Positions 8,014 to 41,177 of a DNA stretch of 64,000 bases are shown one piece after another; positions within the stretch are counted from its first letter, which is position 1; every line of letters starts with the position of its first letter. The notes under the pieces are model-generated. The model did no database searches, was not told where the DNA came from, and saw nothing but the letters and a program-made list of their open reading frames with translations. The translations under genes were made by a program, and so were the position numbers. The DNA is taken from assembly GCF_900215145.1 (NCBI RefSeq), contig NZ_OBDO01000001.1, positions 558,001 to 622,000 on the forward strand, in the 5' to 3' direction. Source of the stretch: Geodermatophilus sabuli. GTDB taxonomy: Bacteria > Actinomycetota > Actinomycetes > Mycobacteriales > Geodermatophilaceae.

Positions 8014-8067
8014 CGTTCCGAGGAGCAGAACCGGGGCCCCGGGTGTGGCCTGCGCGACACATAGCGT
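8014..8067 (+). promoter_or_regulatory. IclR-type operator and -10 of the MHS transporter gene
   Basis: CGTTCC-GAGGAGC-AGAACC at 8014-8032 is a 6+7+6 inverted repeat with one arm mismatch. TAGCGT at 8062-8067 is the likely -10, 30 bp downstream, with the ATG at 8119. The operator would centre near -50, an activator position. Confidence 0.7.
8044..8060. promoter_or_regulatory. TGTGGCC-type motif, copy 2
   Basis: TGTGGCCTGCGCGACAC matches 15 of 17 bases of the motif at 4515-4531. Here it fills the -35/-10 spacer directly in front of TAGCGT, so a bound protein would interfere with or modulate polymerase. Confidence 0.45.
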
Positions 8068-8118
8068 CCGCGCGCACACCGGTACGTCCCGTGCCCCGAG
8101 CTCTCGAGAGGTAGTGCC

Positions 8119-9477
8119 ATGACCGCGCCGTCGGCGAACGCGTCACCTGCCCAGCCCAGAAGCAACCGCCGCGTCATCGCCGCGGGCTTCCTGGGGACGA
8201 CGATCGAGTACTACGACTTCTTCATCTACGGAACCGCCGCCGCCCTGGTGTTCCCGACGGTCTTCTTCCCGGCGCTGGGGGCGGCCGCGGCGACGACGGC
8301 GTCCTTCGCCACGTTCGCGGTGGCGTTCATCGCCCGTCCCATCGGCGGTGTCGTGTTCGGCCACATCGGGGACCGGGTGGGGCGCAAGACCACCCTGGTC
8401 GCCACCCTGCTCATCATGGGTGTGGCCACCGTGCTCATCGGCCTCCTGCCCTCCGGGGACTCGATCGGCGTGCTGGCCCCCATCGCGCTGATCGCCCTGC
8501 GCTTCCTGCAGGGCCTCGCCGTCGGCGGTGAGTGGTCGAGCGCGGCCCTCTTCGTCAGCGAGTACGCCCCCAAGGGCAAGCGCGGGCTCTACGCGCTGTC
8601 CCCGGCACTCGGGACGATGGTCGGCCTGCTCCTGGCGACCGTCATCTTCCTGATCACCGGCCTGGCGATGTCGGACGACGCCTTCGTGTCGTGGGGATGG
8701 CGGGTGCCCTTCCTGCTCAGCGCCGTTCTCGTGGTCGTCGGTCTCTGGATCCGCATGGGCATCGCGGAGACCCCCGTCTTCAAGGCGGCCATGGCCAAGG
8801 CCGAGCTCGCCAAGCAGAACCGGGCACCGGTCGTGGAGGTGTTCCGCAACCAGTGGCGCGAGGTCTTCCTGGCGTCGGGCTCGGTCCTGGTGTGGTTGTC
8901 CTTCTTCTACATCGGCGCGGTGTACCTCACCAACTACGGCACGACGGCACTGGGCCTGCCCCGCACCACGATGCTGACCATCAACCTGATCGCCGTCGTG
9001 GTCTGCATCGCCGGCGGCGTCGTCGGCGCACGGTGGTCCGACCGCGTCGGGCGGCGCCACGTCCTGCTCGTCGCCAACGGCACGGCAGTCCCGTGGGCGT
9101 TCGTCATGTTCCCCCTCATGAACACCTCGAACGTGGTCCTGGTCGCCCTGGGCATGTCGGTGACCCTGTTCCTCGTCGGCATGGCCACCGGTGCGGCGAC
9201 GGCCCTCCTCCCGGAGATCTTCCGGACGTCGTACCGCAGCACCGGGACAGGTGTGTCGTTCAACCTCGGCAGCGTGGTGGGCGGCGGCATCCCGCCGATC
9301 GTCGCGGCTCCGCTGTTCGCCTCCTACGGCAGCACCGGCCTGTCGATCATGCTCGCGCTGATCGCGGTGATCGCCACGCTGTCGGTGCTCGCACTGCGCG
9401 AGACGCGTGGCCGCTCCCTCGAGGACGACCCGGTCACCGGGGCCGACGCCACCCAGCAGGCCGCCGCCCCGGCCTGA
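8119..9477 (+). CDS. MFS transporter, metabolite:H+ symporter (MHS) type
   Basis: 452 residues with about 12 membrane helices. It carries the MHS signatures: N-terminal TTIEYYDFFIYGTAAALVFP, the loop 2-3 motif GHIGDRVGRKTTL, and RFLQGLAVGGEWSSAALFVSEYAP (the last quoted only as a landmark). MHS carriers import organic or aromatic acids with protons, so this is the likely uptake system for the acid degraded by the neighbouring dioxygenase genes. It is the first gene after an operator/promoter and is followed by a strong hairpin, so it forms its own transcript. RBS GAGAGG. Confidence 0.88.
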   Translation: MTAPSANASPAQPRSNRRVIAAGFLGTTIEYYDFFIYGTAAALVFPTVFFPALGAAAATTASFATFAVAFIARPIGGVVFGHIGDRVGRKTTLVATLLIMGVATVLIGLLPSGDSIGVLAPIALIALRFLQGLAVGGEWSSAALFVSEYAPKGKRGLYALSPALGTMVGLLLATVIFLITGLAMSDDAFVSWGWRVPFLLSAVLVVVGLWIRMGIAETPVFKAAMAKAELAKQNRAPVVEVFRNQWREVFLASGSVLVWLSFFYIGAVYLTNYGTTALGLPRTTMLTINLIAVVVCIAGGVVGARWSDRVGRRHVLLVANGTAVPWAFVMFPLMNTSNVVLVALGMSVTLFLVGMATGAATALLPEIFRTSYRSTGTGVSFNLGSVVGGGIPPIVAAPLFASYGSTGLSIMLALIAVIATLSVLALRETRGRSLEDDPVTGADATQQAAAPA

Positions 9478-9503
9478 CCCGGGCCGCGCCTCGCGACCAC
9501 GAA

Positions 9504-9547
9504 CACGGCCCCTCTCGCCCCGCCATGCCGGGGGGAGAGGGGCCGTG
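9504..9547. terminator. Hairpin terminator after the MHS transporter
   Basis: CACGGCCCCTCTC (9504-9516) pairs perfectly with GAGAGGGGCCGTG (9535-9547), and the loop can itself pair (CCCCG/CGGGG). It starts 27 bp after the stop codon. There is no U-tract. Confidence 0.8.
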
Positions 9548-9586
9548 CCCGTCGCCCCGACGTGCACGGTCCCGTTCGCGGAGCCC

Positions 9587-9639
9587 GGTTCCAGGCCTCG
9601 GAACCGCGGCTGGGGCGAGGCCCGGAGCGTCCCTAGCGT
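9587..9639 (+). promoter_or_regulatory. IclR-type operator and -10 of the hydrolase gene
   Basis: GGTTCC-AGGCCTC-GGAACC at 9587-9605 is a perfect 6-bp inverted repeat with a 7-bp spacer. It is followed 29 bp later by the -10-like TAGCGT (9634-9639). It is the best-formed site in the set. Confidence 0.8.
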
Positions 9640-9681
9640 CGGCGGGGACCACCGAGCCGTACGTCACAGGAGGAGAGCTCG

Positions 9682-10536
9682 ATGACCGCACCCGACCTCA
9701 CGGCGGAGAGCGCCAGCCGCTTCGTGCAGACCAAGCCCCACCGGATCCACTACTACGAGGCGGGCGAGGGGGACCCGGTGATCCTCCTGCACGGCAGCGG
9801 CCCCGGGGCGACGGGCTGGAGCAACTTCCGGCCCAACATCGCGCCGCTGTCGGAGACCTTCCACGTCTACGCCGTCGACATGCCCGGCTGGGGGGAGAGC
9901 GACACCCAGACCGAGGAGACCGGCTACGACCACGTCGCGGCGCTCATCGGCTTCATGGACGAGCTGGGCATCGAGAAGGCCGCGCTGGTCGGCAACTCGA
10001 TGGGCGGCATGACCTCCATCGCCACGGCGCTGCGCCACCCGGAGCGGGTCAGCCACCTCGTGTCCATGGGCGCTCCGGTCCCGGGCACGAACGTCTTCAG
10101 CCCCGCCGGCGGGCCGACCGAGGGGCTGAAGGTCCTCTTCCGGGCCTACGTCGACCCGTCGCCGGAGAACATGCGCCAGCTGGTGTCGATCATGGTCTTC
10201 GACCAGGCGGAGGCCACCCAGGAGCTCGCGGAGCTCCGGTCCTCCGCAGCGCTCGCGCACCCCGAGCACCTGGACAGCTGGAACAACGCCGAGGGCGGCA
10301 ACCCGCTCAGCCGCGAGTACTTCACCTACGGGCTCCGGCTGCCGGAGATCACGGCCCCGACGCTGGCCATCCACGGTCGTGACGACCGGGTGGTCAACTA
10401 CGAGCACAGCCTGCGGCTGGTCAGCGCCATCCCGGACTCGCGGCTGCTGCTGCTCAACCAGTGCGGGCACTGGGCCCAGATCGAGCACGCCGCGGAGTTC
10501 AACCGGGTGGTGCGCGACTTCATCCAGAACCACTGA
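9682..10536 (+). CDS. Alpha/beta hydrolase, meta-cleavage product C-C hydrolase
   Basis: 284 residues, RBS AGGAGGAG. The oxyanion segment is LLHGSGPGATGWSNF and the nucleophile elbow is GNSMGG (Ser106). The acid lies in GRDDRVV (about 235) and the base in CGHWAQIEH (about 263). The HGSGPGA form is typical of MhpC/BphD/CmtE-type enzymes, which hydrolyse the C-C bond of 2-hydroxy-6-oxo-dienoate ring-fission products. In this context it would release the alkyl side chain as an acid and yield 2-hydroxypenta-2,4-dienoate for the hydratase at 41208. It has its own operator promoter. Confidence 0.85.
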   Translation: MTAPDLTAESASRFVQTKPHRIHYYEAGEGDPVILLHGSGPGATGWSNFRPNIAPLSETFHVYAVDMPGWGESDTQTEETGYDHVAALIGFMDELGIEKAALVGNSMGGMTSIATALRHPERVSHLVSMGAPVPGTNVFSPAGGPTEGLKVLFRAYVDPSPENMRQLVSIMVFDQAEATQELAELRSSAALAHPEHLDSWNNAEGGNPLSREYFTYGLRLPEITAPTLAIHGRDDRVVNYEHSLRLVSAIPDSRLLLLNQCGHWAQIEHAAEFNRVVRDFIQNH

Positions 10537-10622: not shown

Positions 10623-10676
10623 GGTTCCGGGCCCCGGAACGGCCGCTGGCAGCAGGACGGCTGGACGCGGGAGCGT
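10623..10676 (+). promoter_or_regulatory. IclR-type operator and -10 for the dioxygenase beta-subunit operon
   Basis: GGTTCC-GGGCCCC-GGAACG at 10623-10641 is an almost perfect inverted repeat. GAGCGT at 10671-10676 takes the -10 position 30 bp downstream. The ATG at 10720 follows, with GGAGG. Confidence 0.75.
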
Positions 10677-10719: not shown

Positions 10720-11232
10720 ATGACCGAGACCCTGACGCGACCGGCGCGCGACCGCGCGCTGGTGACCGAGGTGGAGGAGTTCCTCTACGACGAGGCCGAC
10801 CTCCTCGACCAGTGGCGGCTGCACGAGTGGCTGGCCCTGTTCGCGCCGGAGGGGCGCTACCTGGTCCCGGCCACCGACAAGCCCGACGGCGACCCGCTGC
10901 GCGACCTCTTCCTGATCCAGGACGACCGCTTCCTCCTCGAGCAGCGGGTCAACTCGCTGCTCACCCGCGCCGCGCACGCCGAGTACCCGCACTCCCGCAC
11001 CCGCCGCCTGGTCACCAACACCCGGGCCTCCGCGCGGGAGGACGGCCGCATCGAGGTCAGCGCCAACTTCGCCGTCTTCCGCGTGCGCAACGCCGTCATG
11101 GACACCTACGTCGGCCGGTACGCCCACGTGCTCGAGCGCGCGGAGGGGACCGGCTTCACCTTCCTGACCCGCAAGGCGGTGCTGGACCTCGACGCCCTGC
11201 GCCCGCACGGGAAGGTCAGCATCATCCTGTGA
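10720..11232 (+). CDS. Aromatic ring-hydroxylating dioxygenase, beta (small) subunit
   Basis: 170 residues, the normal length for this family. Diagnostic segments are EVEEFLYDEADLLDQWRLHEWLALF, the DDRFLLEQRVNSLLTR helix, the SRTRRLVTN strand and the C-terminal FTFLTRKAVLDLDALRP (landmarks only). The beta subunit has no metal and stabilises the alpha3beta3 oxygenase. Its alpha partner is not adjacent but 7 kb away at 18169. It overlaps the downstream SDR by 4 bp, so subunit and dihydrodiol dehydrogenase are cotranslated. The ATG at 10720 is chosen because GGAGG precedes it; earlier in-frame starts lie inside the promoter. Confidence 0.9.
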   Translation: MTETLTRPARDRALVTEVEEFLYDEADLLDQWRLHEWLALFAPEGRYLVPATDKPDGDPLRDLFLIQDDRFLLEQRVNSLLTRAAHAEYPHSRTRRLVTNTRASAREDGRIEVSANFAVFRVRNAVMDTYVGRYAHVLERAEGTGFTFLTRKAVLDLDALRPHGKVSIIL

Positions 11233-12032
11233 CCAGGCTCGCGGGCAAGGTCGCCGTCGTCACCGGCGCGAGCCCCAACATCGGTGGTGTGCTGGCGCGC
11301 GGACTGGCGGCCGAGGGCGCCCGGGTGGTCTGCACGGACATCTCCCGGGAGGTGGCGGAGGACTGCGCCCGGCGCATCACCGACGCCGGTGGGGAGGCCG
11401 TCGCCGTCGTCGGCGACGTCACCGACCCGGCGCACGCGACCGAGGTGGTCGACGAGGCCGAGCGCCGGTGGGGCCGGGTCGACGTGCTGGTGAACAACGC
11501 GGTGCTGTTCAACCAGAAGGGCCTGCTCGACATGCCGCTCGAGCAGTACCGGCGCCAGGTCGACGTGATCCTGACCGGCGCCTTCCTCGTCACCCGCGCC
11601 GTCGCCGAGCGGATGATCGCAGCCGGCTCCGGCGGCAGCGTCATCAACGTGCTGTCGACGGCGGCCTGGCAGGGGCAGCCCGGGAACATCGGGTACTCGA
11701 CCGCCAAGAGCGGGCTGATCAACTTCACCCGCTCCGCGGCCATGGAACTGGCCGAGCACGGGATCCGGGTCAACGGCTTCACCCCGACGGCGACCCAGCC
11801 GGAGGACCCGGAGCTCGTGGCCGAGGTCGGCCGGCTCGGCCGGCTGCCGGGCCGGTTCCCCATGGACTTCACCGGGCAGTTCCCGATGCGCCGCCTGCCG
11901 ACGCCGACCGACTACGTGGGCACCGTGGTGTTCCTGGCCTCCGACGACGCCGCGATGATCACGGGCAGCAACATCACCGTCGACGGCGGGGCCACCGCCA
12001 AGTACTGGCCCTGGGCGCCGCACGCCTCCTGA
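11229..12032 (+). CDS. SDR oxidoreductase, probable cis-dihydrodiol dehydrogenase
   Basis: 267 residues, GTG start overlapping the beta-subunit stop. The coenzyme motif is TGASPNIGG, the structural motif is NNAVLF, and the active site has Ser in NVLSTAAW and the YSTAK (YxxxK) pair. Coupling to a ring-hydroxylating dioxygenase subunit makes cis-diol dehydrogenation (BphB/CmtB-like role) the natural assignment: it would rearomatise the diol to the catechol-type acid. Other SDR functions cannot be excluded from sequence alone. Confidence 0.82.
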   Translation: MTRLAGKVAVVTGASPNIGGVLARGLAAEGARVVCTDISREVAEDCARRITDAGGEAVAVVGDVTDPAHATEVVDEAERRWGRVDVLVNNAVLFNQKGLLDMPLEQYRRQVDVILTGAFLVTRAVAERMIAAGSGGSVINVLSTAAWQGQPGNIGYSTAKSGLINFTRSAAMELAEHGIRVNGFTPTATQPEDPELVAEVGRLGRLPGRFPMDFTGQFPMRRLPTPTDYVGTVVFLASDDAAMITGSNITVDGGATAKYWPWAPHAS

Positions 12033-13370: not shown

Positions 13371-14579
13371 TCAGCTGCCGGTCAGGGCGCCGGACGGGAC
13401 GAGGTCCAGGTCGGCCAGCGGGGTGCGGGCGGCGACGGCCCGCCGCAGCTTCATGAGCGCCCGCGGATCGTCGACGACGACGGCGCCGACCACCGATCCG
13501 TCGTCCCCGGTGTAGACGGCGACCAGCTTGTCCGAGGCGCCGCCGGAGCAGTGCGCGAGCACGCCGTCCGACGGCCGGCCCACGATCTGGATGCGGTGCC
13601 CGTACTGGTCGGACCAGACGTAGGGCACCTGCGGGCGGGGCGGCGGGGTGCCCGTGATGCTGGCGGCCACGAGCGCCCCGTGCTCGTTGGCGTTGGTCCA
13701 GTGCTCGATGCGCAGCGGTGAGCCGTAGAGGGCATGCGGCCACCGGGCGACGTCGCCCGCGGCGTAGACGCCGGGGTGACCGACGACCCCGAGGTGCTCG
13801 TCGCACTCGACGCCGTCGTCGATCGGCAGCCCGGAGCCGGCCAGCCAGTCGGTCGCCGGCCGGGCCCCGATCCCCACGACGACCAGGTCGGCCGGCTCCA
13901 CCCGCCCGTCGGCCAGGGCGACCCCGCGCACGGCGCCGTCCGGCCCCTGCTCGAAGTGGTCGAAGCGCGCGCCGGTGACCACACGGACGCCGTGTTCCTG
14001 GTGCAGCTCGGCGAGCAGCCCGCCGACGCGCGGACCGAGGATGTGCGCCATCGGCACGTCCTGCGCCTCGACGACGGTGACCGGGCACCCGTGGGCGCGA
14101 GCGGCGGAGGCGAACTCCGCCCCGATGAACCCGGCACCCACGACGACGACCGTGGGCCGGGTGGCCAGCTGCCGGCGGAGGGCCAGCACGTCGTCCGCGG
14201 TGCGGATGGTGTGCACGCCGGGGACGCTGTCGGCGCCGGGCAGCGTCCGCGGCTGCACCCCGGTGGCGATGACCAGGGTGGTGTAGGGCAGCCGCTGCCC
14301 GTCTGCGGTCTCCACGATCCGCGCGGCCGGGTCCAGGCGCGTCGCCCGGACGCCGAGGTGCAGGTCGACGTCGAGGGCGGCGAGCTCCTCCACGGTCAGC
14401 AGGGGCACGAGCGCCTCGGGGGCACCCGCGGCCAGCAGCTCCTTGGACAGCGGGGGCTTGTCGTACGGGTGGTGCAGCTCCTCGCCGACCATCGTGATGC
14501 CGCCGCTGAAACCCACCTGTCGCAGGGCCTGCACCGTGCGGATCCCCGCCACCGATGCGCCCACCACCAACACGGTCAC
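13371..14579 (-). CDS. FAD-dependent ferredoxin reductase of a dioxygenase system
   Basis: 402 residues. Two dinucleotide motifs are visible: VLVVGASVAGIRTVQALR for FAD near the N-terminus and VVVGAGFIGAEFASAAR for NADH in the middle. The family landmark HHPYDKPPLSKE and a CxxC-free architecture match the BphA4/ThcD type that passes electrons from NADH to a ferredoxin. The GTG at 14579 gives the canonical N-terminus. It lies between the Rieske ferredoxin and the FAD monooxygenase on the same strand, so it is the likely reductase of the ring-hydroxylating dioxygenase. Confidence 0.88.
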   Translation of the reverse strand: MTVLVVGASVAGIRTVQALRQVGFSGGITMVGEELHHPYDKPPLSKELLAAGAPEALVPLLTVEELAALDVDLHLGVRATRLDPAARIVETADGQRLPYTTLVIATGVQPRTLPGADSVPGVHTIRTADDVLALRRQLATRPTVVVVGAGFIGAEFASAARAHGCPVTVVEAQDVPMAHILGPRVGGLLAELHQEHGVRVVTGARFDHFEQGPDGAVRGVALADGRVEPADLVVVGIGARPATDWLAGSGLPIDDGVECDEHLGVVGHPGVYAAGDVARWPHALYGSPLRIEHWTNANEHGALVAASITGTPPPRPQVPYVWSDQYGHRIQIVGRPSDGVLAHCSGGASDKLVAVYTGDDGSVVGAVVVDDPRALMKLRRAVAARTPLADLDLVPSGALTGS

Positions 14580-14682
14580 TGGGTCAGTCTCCGAATCTGT
14601 CAGGGCCGGTCGAGGCCGTCGTACCGGTGGGTGGAACCGGGCGGGCACGGGACGGGCGTCCCGGCGACCGGCCCGGTCGCGG

Positions 14683-14991
14683 TCAGAGCGCGACGTAGAC
14701 GTCGCCGTCCTCGATGACCACGTCGTACATGCGCAGCGCGACGGTGGCGGGGAAGCAGAGCGGCTTGCCGGTCTCGAGGTCGAAGCGGGCCATGTGCAGC
14801 GGGCAGACCACCTCGCCACCCTCCAGGTCGCTGTCTGACCCCAGGGACCACTGCTCGTGCGTGCACGAGTCGTCGCTGGCGAACCAGCGGTCGGACTCGG
14901 TGCGGTAGACGGCGATGGTCACCTCGCCCTTGACCGTCGTCGAGCTGCCGGGCTCCAGGTCCTCCACCCGGCATGCGAAGAGTCGATCCAT
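14683..14991 (-). CDS. Rieske-type [2Fe-2S] ferredoxin
   Basis: 102 residues. The Rieske ligands are Cys43-Thr-His45 and Cys63-Pro-Leu-His66, in CTHEQ and CPLHMARF. The small size and absence of other domains match the BphA3/CmtAd ferredoxin that shuttles electrons from the reductase to the dioxygenase alpha subunit. It is the first gene of the leftward ferredoxin / reductase / monooxygenase operon, divergent from the dehydrogenase at 15265. RBS GAGAGG lies about 10 nt before the ATG. Confidence 0.92.
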   Translation of the reverse strand: MDRLFACRVEDLEPGSSTTVKGEVTIAVYRTESDRWFASDDSCTHEQWSLGSDSDLEGGEVVCPLHMARFDLETGKPLCFPATVALRMYDVVIEDGDVYVAL

Positions 14992-15134: not shown

Positions 15135-15188
15135 GGTTCCACGAGGCAGAACCACGGCCGCGGGTGTCCGGTGTGCCGCGGCTACGGT
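15135..15188 (+). promoter_or_regulatory. IclR-type operator between divergent units, with rightward -10
   Basis: GGTTCC-ACGAGGC-AGAACC at 15135-15153 extends to longer arms (CCGTGGTT and AACCACGG). TACGGT at 15183-15188 lies 30 bp downstream and serves the 15265 gene. A weaker site, TGTCTC-ACTGCCC-GGAACA at 15092-15110, may serve the leftward ferredoxin operon. Confidence 0.75.
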
Positions 15189-15264
15189 GTCGCGCCATGT
15201 CCCTGCTGGTGCGACGGCTCCGCGCAGCACCCGGCCGCGAGCGGCGTGCGGAGGAGGGGCGGTG

Positions 15265-16299
15265 GTGACGCCGCCGACCATGCGGGCGGTCCGCGTCGAA
15301 GCGGCCACCGGCCACGTCGTCGTCCAGAGCGTCCGGCGACCGCGGCCGGCCGCGGGGCAGGTCCTCGTGCGCGTCGCCGCCGCCGGGCTCGGCCGCCCGG
15401 ACGTCGAGCTGGTGGCGGGACGCGGTGGGCTCCGTCCCGACGCCTCGGGGTGGCGCACCCTCGGGCGGGAGGTCGCCGGGGTCGTGGCCGCGCCGGGGGC
15501 GGGGGTCGACGGCTGGCCGCTGGGCCGGCGGGTCGCGCTCCGCTCGTCGGTGCGGATGCCGCGGGGCCGGTTCGCCCTCGGTGTCGACCAGGAGGGTGGC
15601 TGGGCCGACTACGTCGTCGCGCCCGTCGAGTCGCTCGTCCTGCTCCCCGACGTCGTCCCGTTCGAACAGGCCGCCGTCCTCGACGTCGTCGCGACGGCCT
15701 GGAGCGCACTCGCCCGGACCGGCGGTCTCCGCCCGGGTGAGGCGGTCGGGATCTGGGGCGTCGGCGGGCTGGGGACGCACGCGGTCCAGGTGGCCCGCCT
15801 GCTGGGCGCGGCTCCGATCGTCGCGATCGACCCCCGGCCGGAGGCGCGGCAGCGGGCGCTCGGCCTCGGTGCCGACGCCGCGCTCGACCCGGAGGACGCG
15901 TCCTTCGACGCGGACCTCCGCGGGGTCAACGGCGGGCGGCTGCTCGACGTGGCGCTGCACGCGGCCGGATCGGGCGCGCCGCAGGTGCTCGCCTCGCTGG
16001 CCACCGACGGGCGGGCGGTCCTCCTCGGCGGCAGCGCGGCGGGGGCCCTCGGCGACGTGGTCGACCCCTGGGCGGACGGGAAGTGCCTGCTCGGGCACGC
16101 CGGGCCGCTCCCCGAGGACGTCCCGCTCCTCCTGCGCCTCATCACCCACCGGCGCCTGGACCTCTCCTCGTCGGTCACCGACGTCCTGCCCCTCGAGGAG
16201 GCACCCGCCGCCCTGGAGCGCCTCGTGGCGGACGACGGCCGGACGGTCCGCGTGGTCCTGCGGCCCGGAGCGGCTCCGGCGCTCCCCGGGACCGGCTGA
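15265..16299 (+). CDS. MDR-superfamily dehydrogenase without zinc ligands
   Basis: 344 residues, GTG start after GGAGGAGGGG. The Rossmann motif is GIWGVGGLGTHAVQVARLLG and the domain order is that of medium-chain dehydrogenases. Where zinc alcohol dehydrogenases have GVCxTDLH and GHE, this protein has GLGRPDVE and GRE, so the catalytic zinc ligands are lost and the structural zinc loop is missing too. It is probably a zinc-free reductase; the substrate is unknown. It is transcribed from the operator promoter at 15135 and lies upstream of the IclR gene. Confidence 0.75.
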   Translation: MTPPTMRAVRVEAATGHVVVQSVRRPRPAAGQVLVRVAAAGLGRPDVELVAGRGGLRPDASGWRTLGREVAGVVAAPGAGVDGWPLGRRVALRSSVRMPRGRFALGVDQEGGWADYVVAPVESLVLLPDVVPFEQAAVLDVVATAWSALARTGGLRPGEAVGIWGVGGLGTHAVQVARLLGAAPIVAIDPRPEARQRALGLGADAALDPEDASFDADLRGVNGGRLLDVALHAAGSGAPQVLASLATDGRAVLLGGSAAGALGDVVDPWADGKCLLGHAGPLPEDVPLLLRLITHRRLDLSSSVTDVLPLEEAPAALERLVADDGRTVRVVLRPGAAPALPGTG

Positions 16300-16336: not shown

Positions 16337-16389
16337 CATTCCAGCGGCTGGAACGGCCTCTGCCGCCGTGCGGAGTGACTCACGACACT
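16337..16389 (+). promoter_or_regulatory. IclR-type operator in front of the iclR gene
   Basis: CATTCC-AGCGGCT-GGAACG at 16337-16355, whose core TTCCAGC-G-GCTGGAA is a perfect palindrome. GACACT (16384-16389) lies 29 bp downstream as a weak -10. This suggests autoregulation of the regulator at 16411. Confidence 0.7.
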
Positions 16390-16410
16390 CCCGGCGGACT
16401 AGGAGGTTCG

Positions 16411-17355
16411 ATGACCGTCTCAGCACTGTCGCTGGCCCACCTCGAGGAACCCGCCGGACCCACGGGGGCTCCCCGGCCGACCCGCCCGGCGCCGGCCACG
16501 CCGATCGACCGCGTCGCCGGTGCGCAGGAGGGCGTGTCCTCCTCGGCGGCCAAGACGCTGGGCCTGCTCACCGCGATGCTGAAGGCCGGGACCCCCACGG
16601 TGGGCGTCACCGAGGTGGCGCAGGAACTGGGGATGCCCAAGAGCACCACCCACCGGCTGCTGAAGGTGCTCGAGGACCACGGCTTCGTGTCCCGCGCCGG
16701 TGTGCGGTACCGGGTCGGCGGCCGGTTCTTCGAGCTCAGCGAGGTGGCCGGCTGGTCGGAGCACGGCGAGCTGCGCGACGCCGCGTACCGCCCGCTGGCA
16801 CGGCTGTTCGAGCGCACCGACCCGATCGCCGTCCACCTGGGCGTCCTGCGCGGCCGTTCGGTCTTCTACGTCGACAAGGTCATGGGCCCGCAGGGGACCC
16901 GGCTACCCACCCGGGTCGGCGGCCGGTTCCCGGCCACGTGCACCGGGCTGGGCAAGGCGATGCTGGCCCACAGTGACGCCGCCGTGGTGGACGCCGTGCT
17001 GGCCCAGCCCCTGGCCCGGCCCACGCCCTACTCCGTGGCGGCCCGGCGGCGCTTCGTCGACCAACTCGAGCAGACCCGCGCCACCGGCTACGCCGTGGAG
17101 CGCGAGGAGGCCTGTCAGGGCACCGTCTGCGTGGCGGCGCCGATCCTCCTCGAGGGGCGGGCGGTCGCGGCGCTGTCGGTCTGCGTCTCCAGCGCCGTCC
17201 TCGCGCGGGGCCGCGAGCGGCGCCTGGCGGTCCTGGGCCAGCTCGCCGTGGAGACCGCCGCGATCGTGACCGGCCTGCTCCCGTCGGACGAGGGGAGCCC
17301 CCGGGTTCCAGGGGCTGGGACAACGCCCTTCTCCCGTTCGGCGGCCCGGGCTTGA
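16411..17355 (+). CDS. IclR family transcriptional regulator, probable master activator of the aromatic genes
   Basis: 314 residues, AGGAGG 4 nt before the ATG. After about 45 residues of linker comes the winged helix-turn-helix, with TPTVGVTEVAQELGMPKSTT and HRLLKVLEDHGF. Then comes the IclR effector domain, with GKAMLAHSDAAVVDAVL and a Cys/Glu-rich REEACQGTVCVAAPI loop. Its own promoter, the end of its coding region and at least eight other units carry the same GGTTCC-N7-GGAACC operator. From site position (near -50) it probably activates, as PcaR/PobR-type members do. The ligand is presumably the aromatic acid or its product (inference). Confidence 0.88.
   Translation: MTVSALSLAHLEEPAGPTGAPRPTRPAPATPIDRVAGAQEGVSSSAAKTLGLLTAMLKAGTPTVGVTEVAQELGMPKSTTHRLLKVLEDHGFVSRAGVRYRVGGRFFELSEVAGWSEHGELRDAAYRPLARLFERTDPIAVHLGVLRGRSVFYVDKVMGPQGTRLPTRVGGRFPATCTGLGKAMLAHSDAAVVDAVLAQPLARPTPYSVAARRRFVDQLEQTRATGYAVEREEACQGTVCVAAPILLEGRAVAALSVCVSSAVLARGRERRLAVLGQLAVETAAIVTGLLPSDEGSPRVPGAGTTPFSRSAARA
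17304..17322 (+). promoter_or_regulatory. IclR-type operator inside the 3' end of iclR
   Basis: GGTTCC-AGGGGCT-GGGACA within the last codons of the regulator gene. It is positioned to drive the downstream hydrolase / dioxygenase alpha / extradiol dioxygenase run. No good -10 is visible at the usual spacing. Confidence 0.55.
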
Positions 17356-17402
17356 CTGCCGCCGAGCCAGTCCACGGAACCGACGAACGGGAGCAGTCCG
17401 CA

Positions 17403-18125
17403 GTGGCCACTGCAGTGCGCATCGAACCGGACGTGACCGAGGTGCCCTCCGGGGGGCGCAGCCTGGAGGTGGCCACGGTCGCCCTCGGCGGAGTCCCCCG
17501 GGGAGCGGTCGTGCTGCTCTCCGGTGCCGGCGGGCTGCGCCACGTCGAGGTCGTCGACGCCATGAACGAGCTCGCGGAGCACGGGTACGAGTCCGTGGCC
17601 GCGGACCTGGGACCGGCCGAGGACGACGACGCCGCGCTCGAGCACCTGCGCACGCTGCTCGACCGGCTCGCAGCACGCGGGTGGGACCTGGACCAGATCG
17701 GGGTCGTCGGCTACGGCTCCGGTGGGCGCGTCGCCCTGCTCGCGGCGGCCGCGATGGAGCTGGGCGCGGCCGTGAGCGTGCGGCCGGTCCTGCCGGCCGG
17801 CCTGGACGCGCGACCGGTGGACCCCGTGCGCACCGCGTGGCTCGGACTGTTCGGAGCCCTGGACGAGCGGACGCCGCCGGGGTCGCTGGCGGCGTTCGGC
17901 GCGGCCCTGGCCGCGAGCTCGCCGGTGTTCACCCAGGTCGTGAGCTACCCCGGGGTGACCGGGGAGTTCGTCCACGACGGCCTCCACCCGCTGACCCACG
18001 CCGCCGCCTACGACAGCTGGCAGCGCACCGTCGAGTGGCTCAACGCCCGCGTCGTCCCGCGGCCGACCCCCCTGGCCCGGGCGTGGCACGAACGGCTGGC
18101 CCACCGCGAACGACTGTCCGCCTGA
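17403..18125 (+). CDS. Dienelactone-hydrolase-like alpha/beta hydrolase
   Basis: 240 residues from a GTG at 17403; a TTG at 17352 overlapping the iclR stop could add 17. The nucleophile elbow is GYGSGG (Ser in place of the Cys of true dienelactone hydrolase) and the late histidine lies in VHDGLHPLTHAAAYDSWQR. The overall size and the C-terminal helices after the His match the dienelactone hydrolase family. It sits between the regulator and the dioxygenase alpha subunit. An esterase or lactonase role in the same pathway is possible; the substrate is unknown. Confidence 0.75.
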   Translation: MATAVRIEPDVTEVPSGGRSLEVATVALGGVPRGAVVLLSGAGGLRHVEVVDAMNELAEHGYESVAADLGPAEDDDAALEHLRTLLDRLAARGWDLDQIGVVGYGSGGRVALLAAAAMELGAAVSVRPVLPAGLDARPVDPVRTAWLGLFGALDERTPPGSLAAFGAALAASSPVFTQVVSYPGVTGEFVHDGLHPLTHAAAYDSWQRTVEWLNARVVPRPTPLARAWHERLAHRERLSA

Positions 18126-18168
18126 CATCCCCTCAGCCCTGCCGGAACCGAGAGACCGAGGTACTCCC

Positions 18169-19494
18169 ATGTCCCAGTACGTCGACGACGACCGCACGAT
18201 GCCGCGCTTCCGGGTCAACCGGCGGGCGATGACCGACCCCGAGGTGTTCGAGAAGGAGAAGGAGCTGATCTTCAACCGCTCCTGGCTCTACATCGGTCAC
18301 GAGACGGAGCTGAAGAAGCCCAACGACTTCCGGACCCGGAACGTGGCCGGGCGGCCGCTGATCTTCGCCCGCGACGCCAAGGGTCAGATCCGCGTCTGGA
18401 TCAACTCCTGCCCGCACCGCGGCGCCATGCTCTGCCGGCAGCCCTCCGGCAACGCCCGGTTCATGACGTGCTTCTACCACGGGTGGAGCTTCAGCACGGC
18501 CGGCGACATGGTCTCGATGCCCGGTGACGCCTCGTACGGCCCCGACTTCGAGCGCCCCGGCCTGGCCGGGCCGGCCAAGGTCGACTCCTACCGCGGCTTC
18601 GTCTTCGTCTCCTTCGACCACGACATCGTCGACCTGCCGACCTACCTGGCCGGCGCCAAGGAGTACATCGACCTGGTCTCCGACATGTCGGAGGTGGGCA
18701 TGGAGGTGCTCGAGGGGACGCACGAGTACTCCTGCCGGGCCAACTGGAAGCTGCTCGTGGAGAACAGCTACGACGGCTACCACGCGATGTCGACCCACCA
18801 GCGCTACTTCGAGATGGTGGTGGCCGCGCGTGGCAGCCTCGACGCCGGGGCGGTCCTCGCCGACTCGCGCGCCATCGACCTGGGCAACGGGCACGCCGTC
18901 GCCGCCGGCAGCGCCGGCAGCGGGAGCATCTTCGGTCGCGCGCTGTCGCCGGAGGCCGAGGCCGAGCGCGAGGCGCGGTTCGAGCGGCTGCGGGCCAAGC
19001 ACGGCAACGCATGGGTGGACCGCCTCAACGGCTCCCGCAACATGGTCATCTTCCCCAACCTCGTGATCATCGACCTGGTCATGGGCGTGGTGATCCGCAA
19101 GATCGACCCGATCAGCCCGGACTACATGGAGGTCACCGCCTGGGAGCTGGCCCCGCCGGACGAGGGCGAGGAGCTCAAGCGGCAGCGCCTGGACAACTTC
19201 CTGACCTTCTGGGGCCCCGGTGGCCTGGCGTCGCCGGACGACGTCGAGGCGCTGGAGACCTGCCAGCGGGCCTACGCCAGCGCCGGGGAGCTGGAGTGGT
19301 CCGACATCTCCCGCGGCATGCACAAGCCCACCGTCGCGACGTCCGACGAGTTCCAGATGCGCACGTTCTGGCGGCGGTGGAACCAGCTGATCACCGGTGA
19401 GGAGCTGCCGCCCGAGGAGCACGAGCCGCTGCCCGAGTTCTGGCGGGCGCCGCGGCTGGAGCTGGCCACCGAGGAGTCGGTCGCGGCGGGCTGA
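18169..19494 (+). CDS. Aromatic ring-hydroxylating dioxygenase, alpha (large) subunit
   Basis: 441 residues. The Rieske cluster ligands are Cys81-His83 (CPHRG) and Cys101-His104 (CFYHGW). The mononuclear iron site is DGYHAMSTHQRY with His205 and His210. Conserved NWKLLVENSYDGYH precedes it. This is the catalytic subunit that adds both oxygen atoms to an aromatic ring. Its beta subunit (10720), ferredoxin (14683) and reductase (13371) are all in the window but in other transcription units. The extradiol dioxygenase follows 53 bp later. Relatives include toluate, p-cumate and biphenyl-type enzymes; substrate inferred, not proven. Confidence 0.9.
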   Translation: MSQYVDDDRTMPRFRVNRRAMTDPEVFEKEKELIFNRSWLYIGHETELKKPNDFRTRNVAGRPLIFARDAKGQIRVWINSCPHRGAMLCRQPSGNARFMTCFYHGWSFSTAGDMVSMPGDASYGPDFERPGLAGPAKVDSYRGFVFVSFDHDIVDLPTYLAGAKEYIDLVSDMSEVGMEVLEGTHEYSCRANWKLLVENSYDGYHAMSTHQRYFEMVVAARGSLDAGAVLADSRAIDLGNGHAVAAGSAGSGSIFGRALSPEAEAEREARFERLRAKHGNAWVDRLNGSRNMVIFPNLVIIDLVMGVVIRKIDPISPDYMEVTAWELAPPDEGEELKRQRLDNFLTFWGPGGLASPDDVEALETCQRAYASAGELEWSDISRGMHKPTVATSDEFQMRTFWRRWNQLITGEELPPEEHEPLPEFWRAPRLELATEESVAAG

Positions 19495-19547
19495 GCCGGC
19501 CCGCGCACCGCCCCATCCCGCTCAGACCCCGTACCAGGAGGAGTGCC

Positions 19548-20612
19548 ATGGCAGAGACCATCGGTGTCGGACTCACCCACTACCCGCTGCTGCTCGGCCC
19601 CGACGAGACCATGTCGGCGCTGCTGCGCACCACGCTGAAGGACCCGGACATCCCGGCGGAGGCGAAGGACCCGGCCAACTGGTCGCCCCTCGCGCAGCGG
19701 GAGTGGTCCGACGACCAGGGCACCGCCGCGGCGGCGGAGCACCGTGCGGTGCTGCGCGCGGACCTCGACCGGTGCCGCGCCGCGCTGGACGAGTTCCGTC
19801 CCGACGTCCTCGTCGTCTGGGGGGACGACCAGTACGAGAACTTCCGCGAGGAGGTCATCCCCAGCTTCTGCGTGCTCGCCTACGACGACACCGAGGTCGA
19901 CCCGTTCGGCGTCATCACGAAACTGGGACTGCCGAACGCGTGGGGCCTGCCCGAACCGCAGTCGTTCACGATGCGGGGGGCGCCGGACTTCGCCAAGCAG
20001 ATGGCGACCGACGTCCTCAACGCGGGCATCGACGTGGCCTACTCCTACGAGCCGAGGCCGGGGATCAACTTCCCGCACGCCTTCGCCAACACGCAGGTGT
20101 TCCTCGACTACGACAACGTGGGCCGCGAGCTGCCGTACCCGATCGTGCCGATCGCGGTGAACTGCTACGGCGAGCACGTGATCGCCCGCCGGGGCGGCAT
20201 CGCCCGCTTCGCGGAGATCCAGGCCGGCGAGGACCTCGACCCGCCCGGGCCCACCCCGCAGCGGTGCTTCGAGCTCGGCAGGGCGGTCGGCCGCTTCGCC
20301 CGCAAGAGCGACCTGCGGGTCGCGCTCGTCGCCTCGTCGAGCTGGTCGCACGCCTTCCTGTACGACGAGTCCTGGCACATCCGTCCCGACACCGAGGCCG
20401 ACCGCGCTCTCTACCGGGAGATGGTCGCCGGCAACTACGACGCGTGGACGAAGGTGACCAGCCGAGAGATCGTCCGCTCGGGACAGCACGAGATGCTGAA
20501 CTGGTTCTGCCTGCTGGGTGCCGTCAGCGAGCTCGGGCTGCAGCTGGAGTGGAGCGACTTCGTGGAGACGGAGATCTTCAACTCGAACAAGGCGTTCGCC
20601 CTGTTCAGGTGA
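19548..20612 (+). CDS. LigB-family (class III) extradiol ring-cleavage dioxygenase
   Basis: 354 residues, RBS CAGGAGGAG. An N-terminal iron-ligand region (GLTHYPLLLGPD), DVLVVWGDDQYENF, the AVNCYGEHVI segment and the later ALVASSSWSHAF with a conserved His mark the LigB superfamily catalytic subunit. It follows the oxygenase alpha subunit closely, so it most likely cleaves the 2,3-dihydroxy acid next to a hydroxyl (meta cleavage). Its last 8 bp overlap the convergent IclR gene at 20605. No separate small LigA-type subunit is seen. Confidence 0.85.
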   Translation: MAETIGVGLTHYPLLLGPDETMSALLRTTLKDPDIPAEAKDPANWSPLAQREWSDDQGTAAAAEHRAVLRADLDRCRAALDEFRPDVLVVWGDDQYENFREEVIPSFCVLAYDDTEVDPFGVITKLGLPNAWGLPEPQSFTMRGAPDFAKQMATDVLNAGIDVAYSYEPRPGINFPHAFANTQVFLDYDNVGRELPYPIVPIAVNCYGEHVIARRGGIARFAEIQAGEDLDPPGPTPQRCFELGRAVGRFARKSDLRVALVASSSWSHAFLYDESWHIRPDTEADRALYREMVAGNYDAWTKVTSREIVRSGQHEMLNWFCLLGAVSELGLQLEWSDFVETEIFNSNKAFALFR

Positions 20613-22633: not shown

Positions 22634-22728
22634 CCGACCCCTCGACCCCGCCCGTCCCGCCCGACCATCCGCACGTCCCGCACCGCGGGACGCCGAGCAC
22701 GCCCGCCCCCACGGCGGGTGGAGGTGGC

Positions 22729-24483: not shown

Positions 24484-24492
24484 GAACGCCTC

Positions 24493-25284: not shown

Positions 25285-25338
25285 AGTTCCGAGGCGTGGA
25301 ACAGGAGGGCCCGGACACCCCGGCCGATGCGTGAGGGT
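25285..25338 (+). promoter_or_regulatory. IclR-type operator and -10 of the FAD hydroxylase pair
   Basis: AGTTCC-GAGGCGT-GGAACA at 25285-25303. GAGGGT at 25333-25338 lies 30 bp downstream in the -10 position, only 6 bp before the ATG at 25345. The mRNA would then have a very short leader or start at the gene itself. Confidence 0.6.
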
Positions 25339-33303: not shown

Positions 33304-34485
33304 TCAGGAACGGAGATAGCGACTGACCGCCTCCGCCCGGTTGGCCACGCCGAGCTTGCGGAAGATGTGCTTGACGTGCGCCTTCACCGTCGCCTCGGTG
33401 ATGAAGAGGCTCGATGCGATCCGGACGTTGGTGTCACCAGCAGCCATCAACTCGAGCACCTCGCGCTCCCGGATCGTCAGACACGACGGCGGGGAGGACC
33501 GGGCGCGGAACGCAGCCGGCGCGGTGCAGTCGTCCTCGACGCGCCCGAGGGGTGTCGGAGCCGCTTCGAGAGACGTCTCCACCATCTCGTCGACGAAGTC
33601 GACGACCAGCGCAGCGGAGTCGGCCATCGTGCGTCGGATCAGCTGTAGGCGCTCGTGGTACGCCGCTCGCTCGGCGGCGAGACCGAGGCACTCGGTCAGC
33701 ATCCCGATGACCTCGCGGTCGAACTCGTCGGCCAGGCCGCTGTACCGGCTCTCGTCGGCGTGGACGAAGGCGAGGACGGTCCGGCCGACGACGACGGGCG
33801 CCGCCACGTAGGCCTGGGTGCCGGTGACCGTGATGAGCTCCCGGTGGACGCGCGGATTCCGCTGCGGGTCCGTCACCAGGAGCGGTTTGCGCCGCCTGAC
33901 CAGTTCCGACTCGAGCAGCGTCTGGTCGATCCGCCGCGGCGACTGCCGTCCCGCGGCAGTGATCGCCTCGGCGAACTCGGCGTCGTCCTTGACGAACGCG
34001 GACTCCGCCACCCAACGTCCGTCGTGGACCCGGGACACCAGGCACCGGTCGTACCCGACCTTGGCGACCTCGCCCGGGGCCCGTTCGAGCAGGGCTGCGA
34101 TGCTGGTCGCCGAGCGGAGGCGGTCCATCGCGGCCCGGACCGAGGGAAGAGCCGTCATCCGGCGGGCCGTGTCTGCCTCGCGCAGAGCCGTCCGGCTCTG
34201 GCCGAGCTGGACGAGAACGGCGGACAGGTATCCGCGCTCCGCCTGGGTGAGCGAGGGGTTCGAGAGGGCATCGACCACGCTGCTCTGTGCCACGTCGAGC
34301 GCCGCTTCCATGGCCCTCGGCGTCACCGTCGTCGACGGCCCGGGCGCGGAGCACGTGCCCGTCAAGACCTCTGCCAGCTCCAGAACGTCACGAGCCCGAC
34401 GGACCTCGTCGTCCGAGCCACCGACCTGCCGGAAGACGGACGTGGCACGGCGGGTCTCCGAATCCGGGGAAGCGTTCGCCTTCAT
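33304..34485 (-). CDS. GAF-LuxR transcriptional regulator
   Basis: 393 residues, GAGGAGA 5 nt before the ATG. A central GAF-like sensor (about 140-280; DRCLVSRVHDGRWVAESAF, YVAAPVVVGRTVLAFVHAD) is followed by a C-terminal LuxR helix-turn-helix: LTIREREVLELMAAGDTN, RIASSLFITEATVKAHVKHI and FRKLGVANRAEAV. No phospho-acceptor domain. It is divergent from the P450 operon and upstream of the kinase operon, so it may respond to a small hydrophobic ligand and control either (inference). Confidence 0.85.
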   Translation of the reverse strand: MKANASPDSETRRATSVFRQVGGSDDEVRRARDVLELAEVLTGTCSAPGPSTTVTPRAMEAALDVAQSSVVDALSNPSLTQAERGYLSAVLVQLGQSRTALREADTARRMTALPSVRAAMDRLRSATSIAALLERAPGEVAKVGYDRCLVSRVHDGRWVAESAFVKDDAEFAEAITAAGRQSPRRIDQTLLESELVRRRKPLLVTDPQRNPRVHRELITVTGTQAYVAAPVVVGRTVLAFVHADESRYSGLADEFDREVIGMLTECLGLAAERAAYHERLQLIRRTMADSAALVVDFVDEMVETSLEAAPTPLGRVEDDCTAPAAFRARSSPPSCLTIREREVLELMAAGDTNVRIASSLFITEATVKAHVKHIFRKLGVANRAEAVSRYLRS

Positions 34486-34614
34486 CGTGTCTCCTCGTCG
34501 AGCACGGTGCATCCTGGCCGCGCGGTGCTCGCGGGGCGAACAGTCCGGCCTCGCTTCCGCTGCTCGGCGCTGGTGGACCGACTCTACGGCCGCATCCCCT
34601 CGCCCCCGCCGCCC

Positions 34615-34633
34615 CGTTTCAAGTGATGGAACA
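34615..34633 (+). promoter_or_regulatory. IclR-type operator in the LuxR/P450 divergent region
   Basis: CGTTTC-AAGTGAT-GGAACA, one mismatch in the core arms (GTTTC for GTTCC) with the exact 7-bp spacer. It lies in the 346-bp gap 34486-34831, which otherwise holds no gene. No -10 is seen at the usual distance, and the P450 start is about 200 bp away. It would tie the P450 operon to the dioxygenase regulon. Confidence 0.5.
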
Positions 34634-39308: not shown

Positions 39309-40427
39309 ATGAGGAGTCGCGGAGCCGTTCTCCGGGAAGCGCCCGGGAAGTTCGAGATCGTCGACCTCGAGGTCGACGACCCGCGCCAGGACGAGGTCCG
39401 GGTCAAGATGGTCGCGTCGGGTCTGTGTCACTCCGACGACCACATGGCGACAGGTGACCTCCCCGTCGCTGTCTACCCGGTCTGCGGCGGGCACGAGGGT
39501 GCGGGGATCATCGAGTCGGTCGGCCCGAACACCCAGGGGTTCGAGCCCGGCGACAAGGTGGTCTTCTCGTTCCTGCCGGCGTGCGAGAAGTGCCGCTGGT
39601 GCTCCACCGGACACCAGAACCTGTGCGACCTGGGTGCGAACGTGATGGTCGGGTCACGCTGGGAGGACCCGACGAGCTTCCGGCTCCAGCTCCCGGACGG
39701 CACGCCGGTCGCGCAGGCGCTCGGCATCTCCACCTTCGCCGAGTACACGACCGTCTCGGTCGACTCCGTGATCAAGGTGCCTGCCGACACGCCGCTGGAG
39801 AAGGCCTGCCTGCTGGGATGCGCTGCGGGTACCGGCTGGGGCTCGGCGGTCAACACGGGGGGTGTCCGGCCGGGCGACACCGTCGTGGTCCTCGGCGTCG
39901 GCGGCGTCGGGGCCATGGCGGTGCAGGGTGCCCGGCATGCCGGCGCGGCGCGGGTCATCGCCGTCGACCCGGTCGCGTTCAAGCGCGAGCACGCTGAGTC
40001 GTTGGGCGCCACGCACGTCGTCGCGACCGCGGAGGAGGCGACCGAGCTGGCGCAGACCTCCACGAACGGACAAGGTGCCGACGTCGCGATCGTGACCGTC
40101 GGCGTGATCACCGGGGAGCACATCGCCGAGGCGTTCCGAGCGATCCGCAAGCAGGGCACGGTGGTGGTCACCGCGCTGGGAGACGTCACGGAGGTCGGTA
40201 TCCCCGTCTCGATCCTCGAGCTGATCCTGTTCGAGAAGAAGATCAAGGGATCGCTGTTCGGCTCCTCGAGCCCCCGGGCGGACATCCCGAAGCTCCTGGA
40301 CCTGTACCGGGCCGGCCACCTCGAGCTCGACGAGCTGATCACCACCGAGTACAGCCTCGACGAGATCACCAAGGGCTACGAGGACATGCACGCGGGCACG
40401 AACATCCGAGGCGTGATCCGATTCTGA
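39309..40427 (+). CDS. Zinc alcohol dehydrogenase of the NDMA/mycofactocin-dependent type
   Basis: 372 residues, CAGGAGGTCCC before the ATG. Catalytic zinc ligands are in GLCHSDDH and GGHEGAG, structural zinc in CEKCRWCSTGHQNLC, and the Rossmann motif in LGVGGVGAMAVQGARHAG. The SFLPACEKCRWCSTGHQNLCDLGA region (landmark) is typical of the Rxyl_3153-like family, which from general knowledge keeps its nicotinamide bound and is linked to the redox carrier mycofactocin. No mycofactocin genes are in this window. It is the last gene of the P450 operon and likely oxidises the primary alcohol made by the P450. Confidence 0.85.
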   Translation: MRSRGAVLREAPGKFEIVDLEVDDPRQDEVRVKMVASGLCHSDDHMATGDLPVAVYPVCGGHEGAGIIESVGPNTQGFEPGDKVVFSFLPACEKCRWCSTGHQNLCDLGANVMVGSRWEDPTSFRLQLPDGTPVAQALGISTFAEYTTVSVDSVIKVPADTPLEKACLLGCAAGTGWGSAVNTGGVRPGDTVVVLGVGGVGAMAVQGARHAGAARVIAVDPVAFKREHAESLGATHVVATAEEATELAQTSTNGQGADVAIVTVGVITGEHIAEAFRAIRKQGTVVVTALGDVTEVGIPVSILELILFEKKIKGSLFGSSSPRADIPKLLDLYRAGHLELDELITTEYSLDEITKGYEDMHAGTNIRGVIRF

Positions 40428-40430
40428 CCC

Positions 40431-40473
40431 GGTGAGTGGTTGCACCGTGCCGTCTCCGGTGCACCCACTCACC
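40431..40473. terminator. 17-bp hairpin terminator of the P450 operon
   Basis: GGTGAGTGGTTGCACCG (40431-40447) pairs with 40457-40473 with one mismatch, around a 9-nt loop, starting 4 bp after the ADH stop. Confidence 0.8.
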
Positions 40474-40684
40474 ACCGCCGGCACCGACGTCCGCCCGAGC
40501 CGGGGGACGAGTGCCCAGCAGACACTGACTCAGGCGGGGAGTCGACCACGTCCTCACGCCTGCCGAGTGACCCCGGACGAGGACGCCGAACCGACACCAG
40601 CACATCGCTGCGTTCCGCGTGCCGACGCAGATGAGTGCCCGATCAGAACACGGCCAGTCCGCACGGGCTTCAGCGGCCCGACCC

Positions 40685-40905
40685 CTCACGCCCGACGAAC
40701 TCGCCCAGGCGACCGGGTGGACGGTCGAACCGCACGGAGCCTCCAAGGGGCGCGTGGATGCCGCCGTCCGGCCCGGACCGGAGGCACTCCCGTCCGGGGA
40801 GCTGTCGCGCCGCCGGCGCACGCCGCCGTACCGAGCTGTGGGCACTCGCGCCGGAGGCGGATGGCCATGCGATGGTCGACGCGCGGGCTCCTCGATCCGC
40901 CAGTA
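40685..40905 (+). pseudogene. Possible remnant of a thioredoxin-like (TlpA-type) gene
   Basis: In one frame 40685 onward reads [22 protein letters not shown]. In another, near 40845-40905, it reads [21 protein letters not shown]. In order and spacing these resemble the N-terminal part of actinobacterial redoxin proteins, but the frame is broken and the thioredoxin domain itself is absent. The rest of the 40474-41122 stretch shows nothing I can support. Weak call from resemblance only. Confidence 0.3.
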
Positions 40906-41122
40906 CGGCCGCCGCGGCGTTGCTCGGCGCCCGGGTCGGACGCGCCCCAGCGCTGTTGGTCGTGGGCGGGCGCTCACGTCGTCCGCGGGCGGCTGGGCGT
41001 GCCGCCGGTCGATGACCGCGATCGGACTCCGGACGCCGGGTCGGAGCGGTCCCGCGTCGGTGAGCGGCCTGGGGCCGTCGATGTCGGACCGGGCGTGGCG
41101 GGTCGCTGCGGCGTCCGGTGCA

Positions 41123-41177
41123 GGTTCCGTTGACCGGAACGAGGTGGTAGGCGCTGCCGCCCCCCAGCGCGCATGGT
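41123..41177 (+). promoter_or_regulatory. IclR-type operator and -10 of the lower meta-pathway operon
   Basis: GGTTCC-GTTGACC-GGAACG at 41123-41141, a near-perfect inverted repeat. CATGGT at 41172-41177 sits 31 bp downstream as a weak -10. It links the lower pathway to the same regulator as the dioxygenase genes 20-30 kb away. Confidence 0.7.

Follow-up and report, generated by a model that had tools for sequence, protein, structure and literature searches.

Predicted IclR-family operators at a near-constant distance from -10-like hexamers in an aromatic-degradation gene cluster of Geodermatophilus sabuli

The gene cluster and its predicted operators

The stretch of Geodermatophilus sabuli DNA analysed here (64 kb, hereafter the window, representing 1.2% of a genome of 5.5 Mb in 25 contigs with 73% G+C) contains a gene set for aromatic meta-cleavage, and several of its promoters carry a short palindrome that we describe as the predicted operator of an IclR-family regulator. 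The genes were assigned with Pfam and NCBIfam profiles and comprise, besides transporters of the major facilitator superfamily (MFS), the following features:

18169 (start): ring-hydroxylating dioxygenase (RHO) alpha
10720 (start): ring-hydroxylating dioxygenase beta
11229 (start): short-chain dehydrogenase/reductase (SDR)
19548 (start): LigB-type extradiol dioxygenase
9682 (start): alpha/beta hydrolase
12075, 25372 and 27087 (starts): FAD hydroxylases
41235-44091: hydratase, acetaldehyde dehydrogenase and aldolase
16411 and 20605: two IclR regulators, accompanied by one GntR and one GAF-LuxR regulator

Acetaldehyde dehydrogenase and aldolase score above their NCBIfam cut-offs. No pathway substrate is assigned, because all specific NCBIfam names examined for the upper-pathway enzymes score below theirs. 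Genes of the window and of the G- and L-labelled sequences discussed below, apart from two plasmids, were called by codon score, so that start codons and the status "intergenic" are approximate; the caller overlooked some IclR genes, for example in G706 and L023.

A preliminary description had listed twelve sites of 6+7+6 geometry (GGTTCC-N7-GGAACC), eight main ones and weaker ones at 4564, 34615, 49473 and 56899. All are present at these coordinates, with 4564 lying beyond three mismatches to the twelve defined bases. The predicted operators, the hexamers that follow them and the two candidate binders are:

4564-4582, plus strand: weak predicted operator; TAGCGT at 4613-4618 (+31); before the amidohydrolase-2 gene 4668-5726 (Pfam)
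8014-8032, plus strand: predicted operator, exact refined motif; TAGCGT at 8062-8067; before MFS transporter 8119-9477
9587-9605, plus strand: predicted operator; TAGCGT at 9634-9639; before alpha/beta hydrolase 9682-10536
10623-10641, plus strand: predicted operator; GAGCGT at 10671-10676; before ring-hydroxylating dioxygenase beta 10720-11232 and SDR 11229-12032
14620-14638, minus strand: predicted operator, new, one mismatch to the refined motif; GAGACT at 14586-14591 (+29); before ferredoxin reductase 13371-14579
15135-15153, plus strand: predicted operator; TACGGT at 15183-15188; before alcohol dehydrogenase (ADH) 15262-16299
16337-16355, plus strand: predicted operator, outer base A for G; GACACT at 16384-16389 (+29); before the IclR1 gene
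16411-17355, plus strand: IclR1, candidate binder; HTH_IclR 52.8 bits (cut-off 22), IclR_C 108.9 bits (cut-off 24)
17304-17322, plus strand: operator-like site, doubtful; within the 3' end of IclR1, before the dienelactone hydrolase (DLH) gene; hexamer absent
20605-21357, minus strand: IclR2, second candidate binder (Pfam), with its real start upstream of 21357; recognition helix PKSTVHR
25285-25303, plus strand: predicted operator; GAGGGT at 25333-25338; before FAD monooxygenase (likely ATG 25345) and FAD3 27087-28298
34615-34633, minus strand: weak predicted operator, one mismatch to the refined motif; TAGAGT at 34581-34586 (+29, minus strand only); towards GAF-LuxR 33304-34311
41123-41141, plus strand: predicted operator; CATGGT at 41172-41177; before 2-keto-4-pentenoate hydratase (likely ATG 41208), acetaldehyde dehydrogenase and HOA aldolase

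The genes for IclR1, DLH, RHO alpha and LigB (16411-20612) are separated by short gaps and may form one operon. Site 15135 stands between ADH and a divergent Rieske ferredoxin gene (14683-14967).

Operator motif and its distribution

The motif is better described by the 17-mer GTTCCR-N5-YRGAAC than by the pattern originally proposed. Its base 6 is a purine in all twelve listed sites and its base 12 a pyrimidine in ten (the exceptions being 4564, whose right arm is degenerate, and 49473), a bias that counts for a regulon because these bases stand outside the pattern by which the sites had been recognised. Exact matches to the 17-mer occur at seven plus-strand places in the genome, six of them within the window (8014-41141), while the seventh (C6:317479) appears to be coding judging by its flanks. 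The rarity of the refined pattern elsewhere is partly circular, because it was derived from these same sites. An exact match to the original pattern occurs once in the whole genome, at site 9587; with two mismatches allowed, it is found at 273 places (12 within the window), compared to 188 for its reversed form. At up to one mismatch, five of its 28 distinct places fall in the window, one of these (51329) being coding.

Within the intergenic part of the window (41 stretches, 7375 bp), the sites were more numerous than in every one of 300 dinucleotide shuffles at each threshold tried: four against a shuffle mean of 0.01 at up to one mismatch, seven against 0.46 (maximum 3) at up to two, and 17 against 5.24 (maximum 13) at up to three. 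The spacing of the arms is equally distinctive, as GTTCC and GGAAC (up to one mismatch) give ten intergenic hits at spacing 7 and zero to two at all other spacings from 0 to 20.

The strict palindrome TTCCRN5YGGAA was found at ten places in the genome, five of them in the window (reversed control, 0). For four of the five outside places (L022:5969, L023:5362, L024:7342, L025:6950 and L026:7427), another IclR match is found no farther away than about 4.2 kb, the genome having 24 such matches at an E value of 0.001 or better; the G...C outer pair is missing from all five, and a gene-facing end with the hexamer is present at one. These few sites hint that the outer base pair may serve as a specificity code among IclR paralogues.

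A tandem partner 18-22 bp away (up to three mismatches) was found at one of seven main sites (9567, at 20 bp), and a further partner-like site, 7990, stands at a distance of 24 bp. Visual inspection suggested TGG, some 12 bp past the right arm, as a third half-site, but the idea was dropped; in some outside promoters the TTG of a possible -35 element lies near that place (offset 7, four of 26 ends).

Distance between operator and hexamer

A hexamer of the form NANNNT, resembling a -10 element and starting 29 to 31 bp after the right arm of the 19-mer, had been noted at eight sites. The count holds: eight of the nine stronger sites (the eight main ones and 4564), or eight of all twelve, carry it, and for the same nine sites the overlapping windows +28 and +30 have six hexamers and every other window at most two. 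The minus strands add two units, 14620 (GAGACT) and 34615 (TAGAGT), whereas the hexamer is absent on the minus sides of 4564, 8014, 15135, 49473 and 56899 and on the plus side of 14620. Among the weaker sites, 4564 keeps its place in the series, 34615 does so on the minus strand only, and 49473 and 56899, lacking a hexamer on either strand, are not supported. Site 17304, lying inside the IclR1 gene and likewise without hexamer, is doubtful as a promoter operator. As a side observation, 34615, earlier ascribed to the side of a P450 gene, has its hexamer facing the GAF-LuxR gene 33304-34311; this orientation suggests a regulatory cascade via the GAF-LuxR regulator.

If the -10 element is placed at -12 to -7, the centre of the operator falls at about -50 to -52 and its right arm stops some 42 bp short of the predicted start, in agreement with the earlier proposal of an activator-like position near -50. 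The -35 quality in the window matches that of shuffled sequence (2.25 vs 2.22). It is this position, together with the weak -35, that points to activation rather than repression. A regulator that blocks the promoters as a repressor and is released by an effector appears unlikely, even if such behaviour has precedents. Aromatic-pathway regulators of the IclR family are often repressors (PMC13273656, PMC9582017), and some reportedly act both ways, GenR being described in the title of a cited work as activating and repressing. However, the putative site of the repressor CatR of Rhodococcus opacus reportedly overlaps both the -35 and the -10 (PMC9582017), whereas the right arms in the window end upstream of the -35 at a near-constant distance from the hexamer.

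For the units at 25285 and 14620, the predicted starts lie on or next to the start codons at 25345 and 14579 (the latter near the GTG of ferredoxin reductase), which suggests leaderless messages. GAGGGT at 25333 could alternatively be a ribosome-binding site; this is countered by the relative G706 (see below), where GAGGAT stands at nearly the same offset, approximately 50 bp before the called gene start.

Conservation in related genomes

Matches to IclR1 are scarce: with the own genome counted in each case, they were found in three of 112 genomes of the family at 1e-35 and, at 1e-38, in four of 396 genomes of a phylum sample and 20 of 397 of an order sample. One search for relatives returned only two distant ones (38% and 30%). 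A member of another family of the same order (G706, 53 kb compared) carries both IclRs, with 56% (IclR1) and 59% (IclR2) identity, as well as RHO alpha (79%) and LigB (78%). Its orthologues, at 47-79% identity, include MFS, alpha/beta hydrolase, dioxygenase alpha and beta, SDR, ferredoxin, ferredoxin reductase, DLH, LigB, the amidohydrolase of 21581 and FAD3; the hydratase operon, P450 and ADH 15262 have no orthologue within these 53 kb.

Operator and hexamer are kept in G706 at the promoters of MFS, alpha/beta hydrolase, FAD3, Rieske ferredoxin and IclR1, and most of the bases flanking them differ between the two genomes. The MFS promoter (counterpart of 8014) reads GTTCCGAGGGCTAGAAC followed by TAGGTT, that of the alpha/beta hydrolase (counterpart of 9587) has an operator plus TAGCGT, the FAD3 orthologue is preceded by an operator plus GAGGAT, and the IclR1 promoter combines an exact operator with GACAGT at +29, where the window has GACACT. 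For 10623 no separate promoter exists in G706, as the genes adjoin there. Site 17304 has a match at the same place, which may be conserved as coding sequence.

In another species of the genus (G019), one operon (in stretch L019) is 82-93% identical to the hydratase operon 41235-44091 of the window, and a cluster on its contig C17, encoding a dioxygenase and extradiol enzymes, has three exact operators around its IclR. The upper-pathway genes, by contrast, match G706 best of the three stretches compared, and it is possible that the cluster is a patchwork. A second dioxygenase cluster of G019 (L016, L027) has an IclR 41-43% identical to IclR1 and a second dioxygenase alpha gene; its left arms are mostly variant (GTGCCR, GTCCCR).

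Recurrence near other IclR genes

A total of 31 outside stretches was analysed, in which one palindrome yields up to two gene-facing ends; for most of these sequences the hexamer rule was already settled by the time they were examined. Seventeen stretches near IclR1 relatives gave 28 hits at up to one mismatch, compared to two for the reversed control. Together with four stretches of G019 they contain 39 sites, 36 of them intergenic, with 53 gene-facing ends, and the hexamer was found at 26 of these ends (25 of 33 when counted by site), with a mean over all offsets of 4.7 and a next separate peak of 10 ends; shuffled flanks gave a mean of 3.7 and a maximum of 12 in 2000 shuffles. L016 and L019 had been inspected before entering this set, and the three exact L019 sites do not test the R/Y pattern, because they were found with it. 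Eight further stretches gave 14 sites against one control hit.

Two plasmids were chosen by their dioxygenase alpha (70-74%) and analysed with RefSeq genes, no plasmid record being dropped after inspection. Rhodococcus erythropolis X5 pRhX5 (L077) has 12 sites and Pseudonocardia sp. EC080619-01 pBCI1-2 (L078) six at up to one mismatch (control 0 for both), and the hexamer is present at 18 of 28 ends (offset mean 2.8), or 16 of 17 by site. Both plasmids would carry regulons related to that of the window; on pRhX5, sites also precede ABC transporter and acyl-CoA dehydrogenase genes. Summed over all outside sets, the hexamer was found at 48 of 96 ends. In addition, 18 of 23 IclR1-like genes outside this genome have a site (up to two mismatches) just upstream (control, 3). 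The idea that one operator type ties the transcription units together is supported by the orthologous promoters of G706 and by the recurrence of the register near IclR relatives.

Candidate regulators

The IclR1 protein had been named as the obvious binder. A predicted site does precede its gene, both in the window and in G706, and on pRhX5 its orthologue (59%, helix PKSTAHR) is the sole annotated IclR in the 41 kb fetched with sites. IclR2, in contrast, lacks a site before its own gene: none of up to three mismatches lies between 20672 and 22994 in the window, none stands before the gene in G706, and two-sequence alignment and repeat search of the upstream regions from the two genomes revealed no shared palindrome.

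What is less obvious is that IclR1 should be the sole binder, and it falls only slightly short of an even chance that IclR2 reads the operators, alone or with IclR1. The two proteins agree at the published contact positions 27, 28, 29, 30, 32 and 33 (PKSTTHR vs PKSTVHR; in the underlying helix-turn-helix (HTH) alignment, L003, L009 and L021 are blank and L007 does not differ from L005 over the aligned portion; these were left out of the count), and they stand together in G706. On pBCI1-2 the sole annotated IclR in 41 kb is an orthologue of IclR2 (49%, as compared to 37% to IclR1; helix PKSTVHR), with six sites, one of which precedes its own gene and has a hexamer. The HTH of the C17 IclR of G019, surrounded by its three exact sites, is nearer to that of IclR2 (56%) than to that of IclR1 (32%), and in a further genome (G786) an exact site lies no more than about 130 bp upstream of an IclR2-like match. 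Because orthologues of IclR1 and IclR2 each stand alone beside sites on plasmids, the operator would seem to belong to both lineages. The binder in this cluster is probably IclR1, IclR2 quite possibly reads the same sites, and joint reading by both is a real possibility. For IclR1, membership of the PcaR/PcaU/PobR subfamily (TIGR02431) is not indicated (106.9 bits against a curated cut-off of 284.75), and the BhcR, KdgR, IclR and AllR equivalogs all remain under their curated cut-offs.

Relation to known IclR systems

The operator type is attributed to the IclR family because its arms match a published motif class and because the same register recurs near IclR relatives. In the survey of Suvorova and Gelfand (2021, PMC8222616), the GTT-11-AAC subgroup of group 1 operators comprises 17-bp, odd-length palindromes with arms GTTYCR...YGRAAC. 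The window shares these arms, the length, the 11-bp core and the own-gene site, with deviations at 16337 (A at base 1), at 8014 and 15135 (A for G at base 13, giving AGAAC) and at the degenerate 4564. The published centre is A/T-rich (Y-W3-R), unlike that of the window, which is G+C-rich, with positions 7-11 mostly G/C or purine and no A/T preference at 8, 9 and 11. According to Table 2 of the survey, actinobacteria form the largest share of the subgroup. The survey also finds many aromatic-metabolism genes to be under-represented in it. IclR regulators are described there as generally controlling their own gene and one or two adjacent operons, fewer promoters than in the window. A second, tandem site 18-22 bp away was recorded in 94 of 181 orthologous groups and is, hence, not obligatory. 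Operator positions are given relative to the gene start, and the terms "transcription start" and "RNA polymerase" do not appear in the main text. A limited look at the titles and abstract openings of open-licence papers found no description of the operator-to--10 register.

MhpR of Escherichia coli is an activator that binds near -58. This IclR-type regulator of a meta-cleavage pathway has the operator GGTGCACCTGGTGCACA in the survey's table (PMC8222616), with a half-site that differs from that of the window. GenR of Corynebacterium glutamicum (ATTCC-N7(5)-GGAAT in the same table) resembles the present system in its IclR type, its TTCC-N7-GGAA core and its role in aromatic catabolism, and differs in having A/T instead of G/C as outer base and in serving the 3-hydroxybenzoate and gentisate pathway. 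Further aromatic-pathway counterparts, though for 4-hydroxybenzoate and vanillate, are HbaR1 and VanR1 of Rhodococcus opacus PD630, IclR-type regulators identified as activators by deletion (PMC9582017).

Regulon model and outlook

Taken together, we consider it probable that the window harbours an IclR activator regulon of about ten promoters with an operator centred near -51; this reading rests on the clustering in the genome, the intergenic enrichment, the spacing peak, the register, the conservation in G706 and the recurrence near other IclR genes. In the proposed mechanism, an IclR-family dimer would bind GTTCCR-N5-YRGAAC, centred some 50 to 52 bp ahead of the predicted starts and just upstream of any -35 element, and would help RNA polymerase to open promoters that have an NANNNT -10 and a chance-level -35. 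Transporter, ring-hydroxylating dioxygenase, hydroxylase, ring-cleavage-product hydrolase, the lower meta-cleavage operons and the IclR1 gene would thereby be switched on jointly.

Several observations weigh against this reading. In the whole window at up to three mismatches, 44 sites were counted against a shuffle mean of 41.9, which is no excess over chance, so that the weak sites alone carry no weight. Three of the listed sites (17304, 49473 and 56899) lack the hexamer. No facing operator-hexamer unit was found for the operon 21581-25242 or the Rieske ferredoxin gene (14967, minus strand), and RHO alpha and LigB would need to be read from 16337. In the set of eight further stretches, the hexamer is present at four of 15 ends (four of ten sites; mean 1.2), tied with other offsets, and two of these four ends represent one homologous promoter; several outside promoters are homologous (L057, L064, L065, L072, L074) and enter the counts. 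Finally, the -35 quality of the outside promoters exceeds that of shuffled sequence (3.2 vs 2.35), and activator dependence fits less well with this. The unenriched whole window and the one weak outside set would also suit the view that chance or base composition accounts for the palindromes and that the hexamers were picked post hoc, all the more as the hexamer rule was originally chosen after looking. Such an explanation is nevertheless extremely improbable in light of the spacing peak, the rarity of the refined motif, the intergenic enrichment and a register that appears in the window as well as in outside sets, for most of which the rule had been fixed beforehand.

As a probable activator regulon, the cluster belongs to a kind of system already known, with a spacing rule that is perhaps general. 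More speculatively, activators of two IclR lineages across several actinobacterial families might share one grammar, a GTTCCR-N5-YGGAAC operator fixed at 29 to 31 bp from the -10 element, which would let activated promoters be recognised from sequence alone, with two paralogues co-reading one set of sites in this cluster and so giving it two chemical inputs; we regard this wider picture as possible, if tentative. The analysis provides a testable map of one regulon over approximately 37 kb, comprising ten promoters for which -10 elements and starts are predicted. Should the register prove fixed in experiments, it could furnish a sequence rule that separates IclR activator from repressor sites, and the two regulators of this cluster would offer a clean case for how IclR paralogues avoid or use cross-talk.

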